A DNA stretch of 40,265 nucleotides from the NCBI GenBank assembly GCA_016839765.1, contig JAEOTP010000078.1:1-40265 (forward strand). The letters run 5' to 3'. Numbering within the stretch: the first letter of the stretch is position 1; the number at the start of each line of letters is the position of its first letter. The notes under the pieces were generated by a model that was not told the origin of the DNA, did no database searches, and worked only from the letters and a program-made list of their open reading frames with translations. This DNA comes from Promethearchaeota archaeon (lineage in GTDB: Archaea > Asgardarchaeota > Lokiarchaeia > Sigyniarchaeales > SOKP01). This document shows positions 4,451 through 24,026 of the stretch, one piece after another. The position numbers and the translations under genes were made by a program.

Positions 4451-4710
4451 GTAATTATTTTCTTGAAAATAGACTTAATTTCCAATAATAGAACCTGAAT
4501 TTAAATTTCTACAAAAAACAAAAACAAAAAAACAAAAAATCAATCATATAATTTATTTAATTCATGCAATTTCTGAACCATGTAGATAACGAATTTCTTT
4601 ACAACATATCTAATTTCAATTGTATTACCGAAGAAAATTATAAATATTGGAGTTGTTACTACGTTGTTAAATAACTGAATCTTATCTAATAATATTAAGA
4701 GGTTTTTAAT

Positions 4711-7065
4711 TTGCAAAGAAAATTGAAATTTTATCTACTATTTGGAGTTCTATTTTTATCGATATCGCCATCTATAAATCAAATTTTCAATATGTATTTT
4801 GATCAAGATTATAACCTTAAAGCTTTACCTAATCCAACCTCTACTTTATCACTTTCAAATGGTATTGGGGATAATATTACGGGGAGTTATGATGGAGATC
4901 TTTCTCTTGTTTATTTTGAATTTAATTCAAATTGGAGTTCGTGGTGGTATCAGAACAGAAGCACAAATATTGTGTCTCATAATATGTCTGTGAACAATAA
5001 AGAATTTGTTTTAAACAGATTAGAAATTTACGCAGACAACATTATAAACGAATCTGGTTCTGGAGATTATGTAATAGCTAATAATATCACTAATCAAATT
5101 AGCCCTGCTCCTTCAATTTTATTTTCTCAACAATTTACTGCTCATGATTTATATTCAATTGATGTTATTTGGCTATACTTGAATTACAGTTTGATTATGC
5201 TTCCAGAACTTGAACATTATTTAATGGTCTTACATATTTTTAATGAGACATTTGAGGAAGAAATTGATGTTATGTGGGAATGGGAATCAAGAAAAGTAGT
5301 TGATGAGTGGAAACCATTTTTTCCCCGGGCTAATATTTTTGAACCTGGTAAAAAGTATAATCTTGTTTTTCATCTATTGGATGAAAAGTCTGAGGATGGA
5401 GGTGGAATACCTTTTAATTTTTGGAAAGCAGAACAATATAAGAACTCTAGTTACAACAAAGGATTAACGCTCAGATTCGATGGTGCGTACTGGTTAGCAT
5501 TCATTAATGATAACACTGCGGATTTATTATGTTTTTTCAGTTATAAAAAGCTTATCAACCCTGCTTTAGTAGATCTTAAGTATATAATTAATAATGAAAC
5601 AATAATCCCTATCTATCAACGGAGTTCTTTTGGATTTTGGGGTTATGAGGCGTATTTACCATATACTCTCGATGCTCAAATAAACGCCCCCATAAATATC
5701 ACTGTTATAACTAACCAAACCATTCCAACTCTCGAAGTATATATAGAGATGTATTACATTCACCTTGTTAATGCAACAGGAACCTATAGTGTTGATAATA
5801 ATTTCAATGAATGGACAATAGAGTATTATTACGAAGAAATATCATTTGGATGGCCCCCTCCGATATTTTTATTCGAAAAGGATTGGGATTTTGTTCAATT
5901 TTTAGATCCAAATGGAATACCAATGAACGAAATCTATTTTGGACCAATGGATTTGTATAACAAATCGTATTATGGAGTGACAGACTTTTTCGGTCCTCCT
6001 TTAGAGCGTGGAACATATACCGGAATATTCCATTCGCCAAATTATTGTAATAAAATTAATTTTAAAGCACAATCCGGGACACAGTTTGTAGATAAAAGTT
6101 CTTTAGAGATTGGGCAAACAATTAAGCTTGAAGCAGAAATATATAACACTTTTAATCAACCTATGTCTGGAGGAGAAGGGCAAATCATATTAAAATCTCC
6201 TTCTGGGTCGATAATTCTTAACGATACTGGATTAAGTACAGTAAATGGGATGCTCAGTAGCTCTGAAATTAATTTGGATTCTACTTATTTAGAAGGATTT
6301 TATGAAGCAGAAATTTTTTGGACGGATGGAAAAGAAATTGCATATTATTCAGCTCAGATTGAAGTAAGAACGCCTTTAAATTTAATCTTAGTCATAGGGG
6401 TCTCTATAGCCTCTGCACTTGCAGCTGTTTCAATTACTCTGGTCTTGAGGAGACAAATCCGGATGAGAAATTGGGAAAAATCATTAAAAAATCTATTTGT
6501 GCTTACTAAAGACGGATTAAGCTTATTTGAATATTCTTTTGGAATTGAGATTCAAGACCCTGCTCTTATATCTGGAATGATAGCTGCTCTTACACAGTTT
6601 GTGCGTGAAGCTACAGGCAGTAAAAAATCTCTCCGCACTGTTGATCAAGAAGATAAAAAAGTAATATTACAACATGGGGATTATACAACTATTGCTTTAT
6701 TGGCAGAAAAGGACTTACCTATAATTCATAAACGTATTAGAAAGTTTTCAGGTGAATTTGAGACAGCGTATCACAAAAATATTAAAACTTTTGATGGTGA
6801 AATTTCTGCATTCAAGAATGCGGATGTGATTGTAAACAAATACTTTCCCATTGATGTAGAAGAACAGATTATTCGAGGTGTGAGAGAAAAATTAATAGAA
6901 TTCCGGGAAAGACTGGACGTTCTTACAGATCCAAGGCATATTATATCTTTGATGCGTGAAATCACCGAATTTATCTCTAGATATCGCGCCATTGTAAATG
7001 AGAATTATTTAGACTATTATAACGAGATAATCATTGGTGCAGAGCAAAAGATTTCTAATGCATAA
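4711..7065 (+). CDS. Transmembrane receptor-like protein with cytosolic longin-like domain
   Basis: 784 residues. The TTG start at 4711 is supported by an AAGAGG ribosome-binding site about 9 bases upstream and a signal peptide directly after it. Residues 1 to about 25 are the signal peptide. Residues 30-550 form a large beta-rich ectodomain with many N-X-S/T sites; its end (about 450-550) looks like an Ig-like fold. A single membrane helix spans about 556-580, followed by R-R-Q-I-R. The cytosolic part at about 592-715 looks like a longin/roadblock-type domain: an F-V-L-T-K-D-G hairpin, then a D-P-A-L-I-S-G-M helix, then further strands and a helix. It is similar to the N-terminus of the GTPase at 23130. 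A helical tail (715-784) ends the protein. Longin-like domains often bind small GTPases, so a receptor passing an outside signal to a GTPase is plausible; this is inference. A long T-tract follows. Confidence 0.75.
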   Translation: MQRKLKFYLLFGVLFLSISPSINQIFNMYFDQDYNLKALPNPTSTLSLSNGIGDNITGSYDGDLSLVYFEFNSNWSSWWYQNRSTNIVSHNMSVNNKEFVLNRLEIYADNIINESGSGDYVIANNITNQISPAPSILFSQQFTAHDLYSIDVIWLYLNYSLIMLPELEHYLMVLHIFNETFEEEIDVMWEWESRKVVDEWKPFFPRANIFEPGKKYNLVFHLLDEKSEDGGGIPFNFWKAEQYKNSSYNKGLTLRFDGAYWLAFINDNTADLLCFFSYKKLINPALVDLKYIINNETIIPIYQRSSFGFWGYEAYLPYTLDAQINAPINITVITNQTIPTLEVYIEMYYIHLVNATGTYSVDNNFNEWTIEYYYEEISFGWPPPIFLFEKDWDFVQFLDPNGIPMNEIYFGPMDLYNKSYYGVTDFFGPPLERGTYTGIFHSPNYCNKINFKAQSGTQFVDKSSLEIGQTIKLEAEIYNTFNQPMSGGEGQIILKSPSGSIILNDTGLSTVNGMLSSSEINLDSTYLEGFYEAEIFWTDGKEIAYYSAQIEVRTPLNLILVIGVSIASALAAVSITLVLRRQIRMRNWEKSLKNLFVLTKDGLSLFEYSFGIEIQDPALISGMIAALTQFVREATGSKKSLRTVDQEDKKVILQHGDYTTIALLAEKDLPIIHKRIRKFSGEFETAYHKNIKTFDGEISAFKNADVIVNKYFPIDVEEQIIRGVREKLIEFRERLDVLTDPRHIISLMREITEFISRYRAIVNENYLDYYNEIIIGAEQKISNA

Positions 7066-8502: not shown

Positions 8503-9909
8503 ATGCCTAAATCAAAAGAAAAAGTCAGTTTCAATCGCGTCTTTTGGCCTCTATATTTACTAAACGGTTTTCAAAGTATCGCATATGGAGCAATTATCGT
8601 TTTAGTAGTGCCTCTTGCTCTTATTATTTGGCCAAATGATTCAGCAGATATTCATGCTTTAGAAATGGGAATATTATATACTACTTTATCATGGTCTTCG
8701 TCTTTTGCAGGATTGCTTTTCGGCAGACTTATTGATAAGTATTCACGTAAAAAGATTATTATTGTCATTTCAATTTTTCGTGGAATATCAATGTTTTTAT
8801 TAGGATTTGCTGTTTATGGTGGTGAAGTCAATACATGGTGGTATTTCTTTATATTTATTGCTCTTTTTGGGTTTTTTGCAGGGGGCTCGTGGCCAGCTAT
8901 TAATTCATTATCCAATGATGTTGTAGCCCAGGATCGACGTTCTCGTTTTTTTGGCGTATATCAAATAATACTTAACACTACTAATATAATAGGTTGGCTA
9001 ATAGCAACCCTTTTAGTCCAAAATGGTTTTTGGAGAGAATTTTTTTGGGGTATAGGTGCTTCCATTCTTCTTGGGGGCTTAATTTTTGCTATTCAAAATG
9101 AAGAGCCAAAAAGAGGTGCTCAACAAGAGGAATTATATCATGTACTCCAAGACGATTCCATAGAGTATGATTTTCAGATTAATAGAGAAATGATGCGCAA
9201 AACAATGCTTAGTAAGACTAATTCTGTGGCTCTCATTGAAGGAATTTTTACGTGTATTCTTATGAGCAGTCTAAACTTTCTAATATTGATCTATATCCAA
9301 AACCCTCCGTACAATCTCGCACCATTTTCAATAGGGGTTTTTATGGTTGTTTTTGGCTTAACAGGAGGGCTCGTAGGTCAGATATTTTTATCAAGGATCA
9401 GTGACAAGATTGCTGTAAAAGATCCAGTAAAAAGATTACCTATCATTGTAATTTCTATAATTGGGGGCTTGGTAACTTTTGCTCTCTTCTTTTTCATACC
9501 TTGGGTTCCCTTAACAAAAGAACAGGGGAAAAATATTCTTTTTATAATGACAATACCCACGATGTGGGTTATGGGAGCACTCTTTTTTACTTCAAGGTCT
9601 ATTTTTTCATTATATATCGTAAATCAGAGTCCTGTTATTCAACAAATTAATTTACCTGAAGCACAAGGTCAAATTGTTTCATGGAATCAATTTTTAGAAC
9701 AATTTGGGAGAGGAATTGGACCTTTGTTATGTGGGGGTCTATTGCTTTTTACAGGCACAAATTATAAAATAACAGTAGTAGTAGTTATTTTATGTATTAT
9801 ACCAGGAGTGATACTATGGCTTCTGGCAATAAAATGGTTTCCAAAAGATAGAACTCAAATTAAAACCATTTTAAAAGAAAGAGCTGAATTACTCAAATCT
9901 CGAAAATAG
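8503..9909 (+). CDS. MFS transporter
   Basis: 468 residues, about 12 membrane helices. The loop between helices 2 and 3 carries the MFS signature pattern G-L-L-F-G-R-L-I-D-K-Y-S-R-K-K (about residues 70-84), close to the family consensus G-x-L-a-D-r-x-G-r-k-k. The central cytosolic loop (about 200-235) is long and charged. It is not a recent duplicate of the gene at 7209, since little sequence is shared beyond the fold. Direction of transport and substrate are unknown. The following 110 bases contain a 13-base direct repeat (9915-9927 and 9930-9942) and then the end of the convergent acyl-CoA synthetase gene. Confidence 0.85.
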   Translation: MPKSKEKVSFNRVFWPLYLLNGFQSIAYGAIIVLVVPLALIIWPNDSADIHALEMGILYTTLSWSSSFAGLLFGRLIDKYSRKKIIIVISIFRGISMFLLGFAVYGGEVNTWWYFFIFIALFGFFAGGSWPAINSLSNDVVAQDRRSRFFGVYQIILNTTNIIGWLIATLLVQNGFWREFFWGIGASILLGGLIFAIQNEEPKRGAQQEELYHVLQDDSIEYDFQINREMMRKTMLSKTNSVALIEGIFTCILMSSLNFLILIYIQNPPYNLAPFSIGVFMVVFGLTGGLVGQIFLSRISDKIAVKDPVKRLPIIVISIIGGLVTFALFFFIPWVPLTKEQGKNILFIMTIPTMWVMGALFFTSRSIFSLYIVNQSPVIQQINLPEAQGQIVSWNQFLEQFGRGIGPLLCGGLLLFTGTNYKITVVVVILCIIPGVILWLLAIKWFPKDRTQIKTILKERAELLKSRK

Positions 9910-23129: not shown

Positions 23130-24026
23130 GTGGTTAAAATAATACAATATATAAATATTCTAAGCAGAGATGGAAAATCATTCCTATTTAGGAATTATGG
23201 TAGTTCTGATGTAGATAGAGATCTCTTAGCGGGTTTCTTAAGTGCTTTTTCAGGGTTTATAAAAGAAATAAGTCAAAGTGAGATTAGATCAACTGCAACT
23301 GACGAATTTAAATATTATTATACGATTATTGATGAGATAATTATTGTAGTATGTGCGGATTTAGATGAGGATGATGCTAATGTTAATTCAAAAATTACAA
23401 CAATAAGAAGAAAATTTATAGAAAAATATGGTACTATCCTTTCTAATGGTAGTTGGTCTGGAAATCGCGCTATTTTTACAGAATTTGAAAGAGAAATAGA
23501 TAACACCATCCTTGGAGCGATCAAAGTTTCAATTATAGGAATAGGTGGAGTTGGTAAAACAACACTTTTACACCTTATATGTGGGAAGGACATTGACTTA
23601 GAATATGTTCCAACTATAAATGTAGATATTACTACTTATGATGGATTTGATGATATGCATCGCTCTATCGTATTATGGGATTTTGCAGGACAAGATAATT
23701 TTAGATCATTATGGAAAAGCCTTCTTGACAGTACAGATGTGGCTCTTCTTGTCTTAGATTCTAGTATTGAAAATGTTAAATATAGTAAAGAAATAATGAG
23801 AGATATTTTGGATAAATATTATAAAGATACTTTAGTTATAGGTATAGCAAATAAGCAAGACTTGCCTAATCGGTTAACTCCTAAATTTTGTGAGAGAATA
23901 CTTTCGGAAGCTGATAGACACCCTTCAATTAAGGTTCATGGGATGATTGCTATCAATCCAGTTTATAGAGAAAAAATACATGCTATTTTAAGGGAAGCCA
24001 TAAATAAAATATATCCCTTAAGCTAA
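23130..24026 (+). CDS. Longin-like domain fused to Arf-like small GTPase
   Basis: 298 residues, GTG start at 23130, directly followed by the first strand of the domain. Residues 1-125 form a longin-like fold: a hairpin with S-R-D-G-K-S-F-L, then D-R-D-L-L-A-G-F-L-S-A-F helix, then strands and a C-terminal helix. It aligns with the cytosolic part of the receptor at 4711. Residues 130-298 are a GTPase: G1 G-I-G-G-V-G-K-T (137-144), T162, G3 W-D-F-A-G-Q (183-188), G4 N-K-Q-D-L-P (241-246). N-K-Q-D is the Arf/Sar form. G5 is weak (I-A-I-N-P around 273-277). The arrangement recalls the GTPase plus longin pairs of the eukaryotic Rag/Ragulator and SRX/SR-beta systems, but on one chain. A dimer sensing a membrane partner through longin contacts is plausible inference. 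Confidence 0.85.
   Translation: MVKIIQYINILSRDGKSFLFRNYGSSDVDRDLLAGFLSAFSGFIKEISQSEIRSTATDEFKYYYTIIDEIIIVVCADLDEDDANVNSKITTIRRKFIEKYGTILSNGSWSGNRAIFTEFEREIDNTILGAIKVSIIGIGGVGKTTLLHLICGKDIDLEYVPTINVDITTYDGFDDMHRSIVLWDFAGQDNFRSLWKSLLDSTDVALLVLDSSIENVKYSKEIMRDILDKYYKDTLVIGIANKQDLPNRLTPKFCERILSEADRHPSIKVHGMIAINPVYREKIHAILREAINKIYPLS

Follow-up and report, generated by a model that had tools for sequence, protein, structure and literature searches.

A Lokiarchaeal type I membrane protein with a predicted cytosolic longin domain and an ectodomain that appears exchangeable between species

The longin is a fold used by eukaryotes in the control of small GTPases. The longins of TRAPP, Mon1-Ccz1, and Fuz-Intu are soluble parts of complexes that act as Rab exchange factors, and to our knowledge none of these bears an ectodomain and a membrane helix of its own. 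Longins are also found in Asgard archaea; one report gives 41 longin domains for Lokiarchaeum, five of them fused to Arf-like GTPases (PMC4917890). Longin-GTPase fusions of Asgard archaea have been modelled in a second paper (PMC10933270), and an ESCRT study (PMC10936438) places Asgard longins also alongside the Vps28-C domain and the adaptin appendage. No description of receptor-type or transmembrane longins was found in the titles and abstracts of the open-access papers listed for Asgard and longin, or in the text passages returned from PMC10933270, PMC7997004, PMC4917890, and PMC10936438, and Asgard membrane proteins that end in a longin are apparently undescribed so far.

The open reading frame reported here is situated at positions 4711–7065 (+ strand) of a 40,265 nt stretch of DNA, termed the window; this stretch corresponds to contig C61 of a Lokiarchaeal genome whose 96 contigs total 3.3 Mb. 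It encodes 784 amino acids and begins with a TTG start; a ribosome-binding-like motif, AAGAGG, was read from the sequence 8 nt 5′ of the start (positions 4697–4702, +). Both the TTG and the motif are kept in the close relative L019. Hydropathy and alignment predict a signal peptide at amino acid positions 1–27 (4711–4791, +), hydrophobic from about position 7 to 27 and resembling that of the sister genome G001 (L019). An ectodomain of approximately 525 residues follows (aa 28–553; 4792–6369, +), delimited by hydropathy, sequons, and Pfam and PDB searches, then a single transmembrane helix predicted by hydropathy at about aa 556–579 (6376–6447, +) and a basic cytosolic stretch, RRQIRMRNWEK, C-terminal to it. 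The cytosolic part consists of a longin domain (aa 590–714, 125 residues; 6478–6852, +), located by BLASTP, shuffles, and profile searches, and a conserved helical tail (aa 715–784, 70 residues; 6853–7062, +), recognized by modelled helices and identity in orthologs. The protein thus displays the layout of a type I single-pass receptor, in which a signal peptide is followed by an extracellular domain that a lone membrane helix links to a cytosolic one. This order had been proposed in a sequence-only reading of the window and is borne out by hydropathy, sequons, and alignment. The same reading had assigned a single longin-like domain to residues 585–784; a longin is indeed present there, but the domain proper ends at position 714 and the remainder is a separate tail. 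Helices in the tail are modelled at pLDDT of about 76–91, and its identity in orthologs is 49–97%. The tail gave no Pfam match, and among 21 relatives searched no homologue of it was found outside the receptor family.

N-X-S/T sequons support the predicted topology. There are 15 in the ectodomain vs 6.0 ± 2.3 in shuffled sequences (none of 500 shuffles reaches 15) and none in the cytosolic part, a pattern also seen in relatives. The only match of the ectodomain in Pfam and PDB is a weak one to the macroglobulin family MG2, found in six of nine orthologous ectodomains with a best E-value of 0.003. It points to a membrane-proximal domain, probably macroglobulin MG2/Ig-like, which was placed by eye at aa 456–553 (6076–6369, +). 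The distal part of the ectodomain yields no relative in the same searches.

The window carries a second longin. The open reading frame at 23130–24026 encodes a longin-GTPase fusion, with the longin at its N-terminus (23136–23516, +; BLASTP and profile) and an Arf/Ras-like GTPase domain following (23520–24023, +; Pfam Roc/Arf/Ras, E-values 2e-16 to 6e-14). BLASTP aligns the receptor with the N-terminus of the fusion over 49 aa with 27% identity (E-value = 6e-5). The Smith-Waterman score is 70 vs 28.5 ± 4.9 in 2000 shuffles (maximum 54), i.e. 8.5 standard deviations above chance. A profile was also built from 40 other Asgard domains, each no more than 40% identical to either copy in the window and with both window sequences left out. 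This profile finds the receptor (E-value = 1.7e-35) and the fusion (5.7e-16), and no further match among all other window proteins and reversed decoys, where the best E-value is 0.07. The similarity between the two domains, first noticed in the sequence-only reading, is real.

The cytosolic domain is assigned as a longin and not as a roadblock domain. When an Asgard-only profile of 14 sequences was searched against all PDB chains, Bet5 came first (0.007), followed by Trs23, AP sigma, zeta-COP, and Mon1; with a profile of 45 sequences (A6), the top matches are Trs23 (4.7e-4), Bet5 (1.6e-3), and TRAPPC1 (3.1e-3). The Pfam families found most often among the 45 members, Sybindin, Fuz_longin_1, and Intu_longin_1, are all longin families. 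Most per-sequence matches are weak and under Pfam cut-offs, yet consistent, the best E-values being 1.3e-5 (Fuz_longin_1) and 2.2e-5 (Sybindin). The receptor copy alone gives a weak match below cutoff to Intu_longin_1 (E-value = 0.035). Two AlphaFold models of the domain are of low confidence (pLDDT 56 and 45) because only four sequences were aligned, and the longin assignment therefore rests on sequence. In both models the predicted order of elements is E-E-H-E-E-H-H, which would fit a longin (two strands, a helix, three strands, then helices) with one strand missing. Foldseek with the trimmed model gives, among its 50 best matches, almost exclusively longin, roadblock, Rag-roadblock, and profilin chains; none reaches an E-value of 0.001, and they count as weak support. 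The roadblock reading was rejected, the Roadblock family being absent among the Pfam matches listed for the 45 members. Neither low-confidence model shows a helix N-terminal to strand 1. The earlier proposal of a "longin/roadblock" fold is thus narrowed to longin by the PDB and Pfam profile matches.

Orthologous ectodomains are found in 14 of the 79 genomes of the order, partial copies included and three more weak matches excluded. Among nine receptor orthologs the mean identity is 75% for the longin, 65% for the tail, and 47% for the ectodomain, so that by alignment the cytosolic side is far more conserved than the ectodomain. Comparison of individual pairs displays a mosaic. Between the window and G001 (L019/L184) the longin shares 91% and the tail 97% identity, and most flanking proteins 90–98%, but the ectodomain shares only 44%. 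Against the species G041 the values are 80% for the ectodomain, 71% for the longin, and 61% for the tail. The nt identity switches close to where the signal peptide ends, and again about 25–30 codons before the membrane helix. The segment between these approximate breakpoints (about aa 27–525; 4790–6285, +) has 65–91% nt identity to G041 and 35–69% to G001. Trees agree with this and conflict with each other: that of the ectodomain groups the window with G041, inside a clade with G037 and G183, and that of the cytosolic part groups the window with G001, then G039, both with full support. Forcing the alternative grouping is rejected with AU p-values of 1.5e-70 and 2.7e-7, which are nominal because the groups were named after the identities had been seen. 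Thus the ectodomain sides with G041, and G001 is the closer partner for the signal peptide, the membrane helix, the longin, and the genes on either side.

Rapid drift is not a likely cause of the ectodomain divergence, since another orthologous receptor pair from the same two genomes, the window's genome and G001, shares 91% identity in the ectodomain (97% in the cytosolic part). That pair also speaks against an assembly chimera of two Lokiarchaea from one sample, which would have produced the mosaic without recombination. Metagenome assemblies are among the genomes compared, yet a chimera would have to place two switches inside one gene and beside its domain borders, and the exchanged segment, at only 65–91% identity to G041, is no copy of the G041 genome; a chimera is distinctly improbable. 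The comparisons argue that the ectodomain is a cassette exchangeable between species. Since the other type of ectodomain is common to G001 and G039, the window's lineage is most simply taken as the recipient.

In the same neighborhood, the MFS gene at 8503–9909 is 63% identical to its G001 counterpart, and the MFS gene between it and the receptor is 90% identical. The gene at 8503–9909 may be exchanged or fast-evolving.

Of 148 genomes sampled from the phylum, 145 contain the longin domain. The window's genome contains 37 longin proteins, in which membrane helices were called by hydropathy only. Seven show a single span with a C-terminal longin and three show multiple spans, so that 10 of the 37 have the receptor-like form of a membrane part and a cytosolic longin; two others have an N-terminal longin and membrane helices, one is a clear GTPase fusion, and 24 have no membrane helices. 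In related genomes, the ectodomain ahead of the membrane helix and longin can reach about 2400 residues. A family of about 745 aa displays 11 helices (10–12 by hydropathy) followed by a longin (L021:4329-6569, L142, L143, L144, L146, L151, L153) and reaches other Asgard classes (L142, L143, L144, L146); its membrane part matches no Pfam family. Proteins of about 550 aa with 10–12 helices and a C-terminal longin (L094, L095, L096, L112) stand as tandem pairs in three of the four loci, and one shows a weak MFS match; these are putative transporter-like sensors. Proteins of about 370 aa carry roughly seven helices, a count that is uncertain, and a C-terminal longin (L026:5110-6210, L026:6376-7524 on G000:C96, L099–L103). 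The two L026 copies are in tandem in the window's genome. Hydropathy and loop charges give this type a layout like that of GPCRs; the likeness is in topology only, with no Pfam match and no GPCR homology detected.

The sequence-only reading had suggested a look at other Asgard genomes for the receptor architecture, which indeed turns up repeatedly, in Lokiarchaea as well as in other Asgard groups. As judged from these sequences, the longin recurs in Lokiarchaeal membrane proteins as a putative cytosolic output module, at the inner end of several unrelated membrane parts. This large family with its several membrane modules and the ectodomain exchange in the window's genome are the main new results beyond that reading. 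On viral contigs the longin profile gave no usable pattern.

Some further longin proteins were observed. Three more single-span longin receptors are clustered at L023 (G000:C83); two of them share 87% ectodomain identity, against about 38% for the third, and relatives are clustered in a similar way in G001 and G008. L032:114-2756 (G000:C95), 880 aa, has an N-terminal longin, after which come a P-loop-bearing stretch that resembles a GTPase by eye, a region of helical repeat-like character, and, again by eye, a nitrilase-like part at the C-terminus. L159 and L160 are longin proteins of similar size.

The reading that we lean towards, by a small measure, is a Lokiarchaeal type I receptor whose cytosolic longin would provide a platform on which a Rab/Arf-like GTPase is kept at the membrane and perhaps activated. 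The secreted part with its membrane-proximal macroglobulin/Ig-like module would bind something extracellular, and the single membrane helix would join it to the longin and the conserved helical tail. A ligand outside would alter the pairing or position of the cytosolic longins and so pass a signal across the membrane. The receptor longin would most likely pair with another longin to form the platform, which would tether the small GTPase to the membrane and might also bring about its GTP loading, in the manner of the eukaryotic TRAPP and Mon1-Ccz1 longins. If ligand specificity lies in the ectodomain and the inside acts as a fixed output, exchange should spare the signal peptide, the membrane helix, and the longin, as it does here.

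Coupling to small GTPases is plausible and the likeliest mechanism, and is supported by the fusion of the same longin to the GTPase at 23130 and by synteny. Copies of the size of longin-GTPase fusions (about 300 aa, judged by length) occur across the phylum. In four relatives (G041, G037, G183, G039) a Rab-like GTPase gene lies on the receptor's strand, one or two genes past the receptor's MFS neighbor (L110:10092-10643, L109:3696-4247, L179:8934-9485, L111:12060-12605); these GTPases are 61–93% identical to that of G037. The window and G001 weaken the case, since the gene is missing at that place in both, where an AMP-ligase gene is found on the other strand. The nearest match in the window's own genome, where Ras-like GTPases give 37 matches at an E-value of 1e-20 or better, is 60% identical and on another contig. 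GTPase genes lie within five genes of membrane-longin genes in 8 of 36 cases (one locus counted twice), about the expectation from GTPase density. With no general enrichment, the synteny seen in those four relatives is scored as a single event. Roles other than GTPase control, which some longins have (PMC10933270, PMC4917890), also weigh against coupling.

The lack of enrichment fits as well with a longin that serves as a trafficking or assembly tag, binding other longins or coat- or ESCRT-like factors and sorting or clustering a surface protein without GTPase control. Longins of eukaryotic SNAREs and adaptor subunits act partly in this way, as is generally known (see also PMC10933270), and the company that Asgard longins keep with Vps28-C and with adaptin appendage domains (PMC10936438) points in the same direction. 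However, the same domain is directly fused to GTPases, and its nearest profile matches are TRAPP longins, which are parts of Rab exchange factors; we consider a tag rather unlikely. The protein might also be a surface adhesion or S-layer-associated protein whose ectodomain binds cells or surfaces and whose longin merely anchors it to a cytoskeleton or scaffold, with exchange reflecting virus escape or a change of partner. A sequon-rich extracellular part with a macroglobulin-like module, the swapping of that part between species, and its patchy presence in the order would suit such a protein, but the better conserved cytosolic half with its family-specific helical tail is more than a passive anchor needs, and adhesion as the main role seems improbable.

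A broader picture can be put forward tentatively, one we hold to be possible though somewhat short of probable. Asgard membrane signalling would use single-span, 7-TM, 11-TM, and transporter-like sensors with a longin output that controls Rab/Arf-like GTPases; it would predate eukaryotes, and its sensor halves would be exchanged between species. Many Asgard small GTPases and longins have no known input, and longin-ending receptors would supply one. The old question whether membrane GTPase control began as outside-in signalling, before internal compartments, would then become testable. Ectodomain exchange offers an independent handle on it, because the ligand side and the output side have been separated in nature.

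Compared with known systems, the receptor longin belongs to the same family as the Asgard longin-GTPase fusions (PMC4917890, PMC10933270), one of which is in the window at 23130. The fusions are soluble with the GTPase in the same chain, whereas the receptor lacks a GTPase and instead has its longin joined to an ectodomain by way of a membrane helix. Its closest sequence profiles are the TRAPP longins Bet5/TRAPPC1 and Trs23/TRAPPC4 and those of Mon1-Ccz1/Fuz-Intu. The longin SNAREs Sec22, VAMP7, and Ykt6 also have a cytosolic longin, and Sec22 and VAMP7 are membrane-anchored, but their order is longin, SNARE motif, and C-terminal anchor, the reverse of the receptor, in which signal peptide and ectodomain come first and the longin last. 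A longin R-SNARE was rejected, as the anchor precedes the longin, no SNARE motif was seen, and the tail is a 70 aa helical domain. MglB and other roadblock proteins regulate small GTPases with a sister fold; unlike them, the receptor domain has no roadblock family match and no N-terminal helix in its predicted secondary structure. Although the output of the receptor is a longin, with no kinase or methyl-accepting domain by Pfam, its arrangement resembles that of bacterial and archaeal sensor kinases and chemoreceptors, in which variable sensor modules are likewise set on a shared cytosolic output domain.
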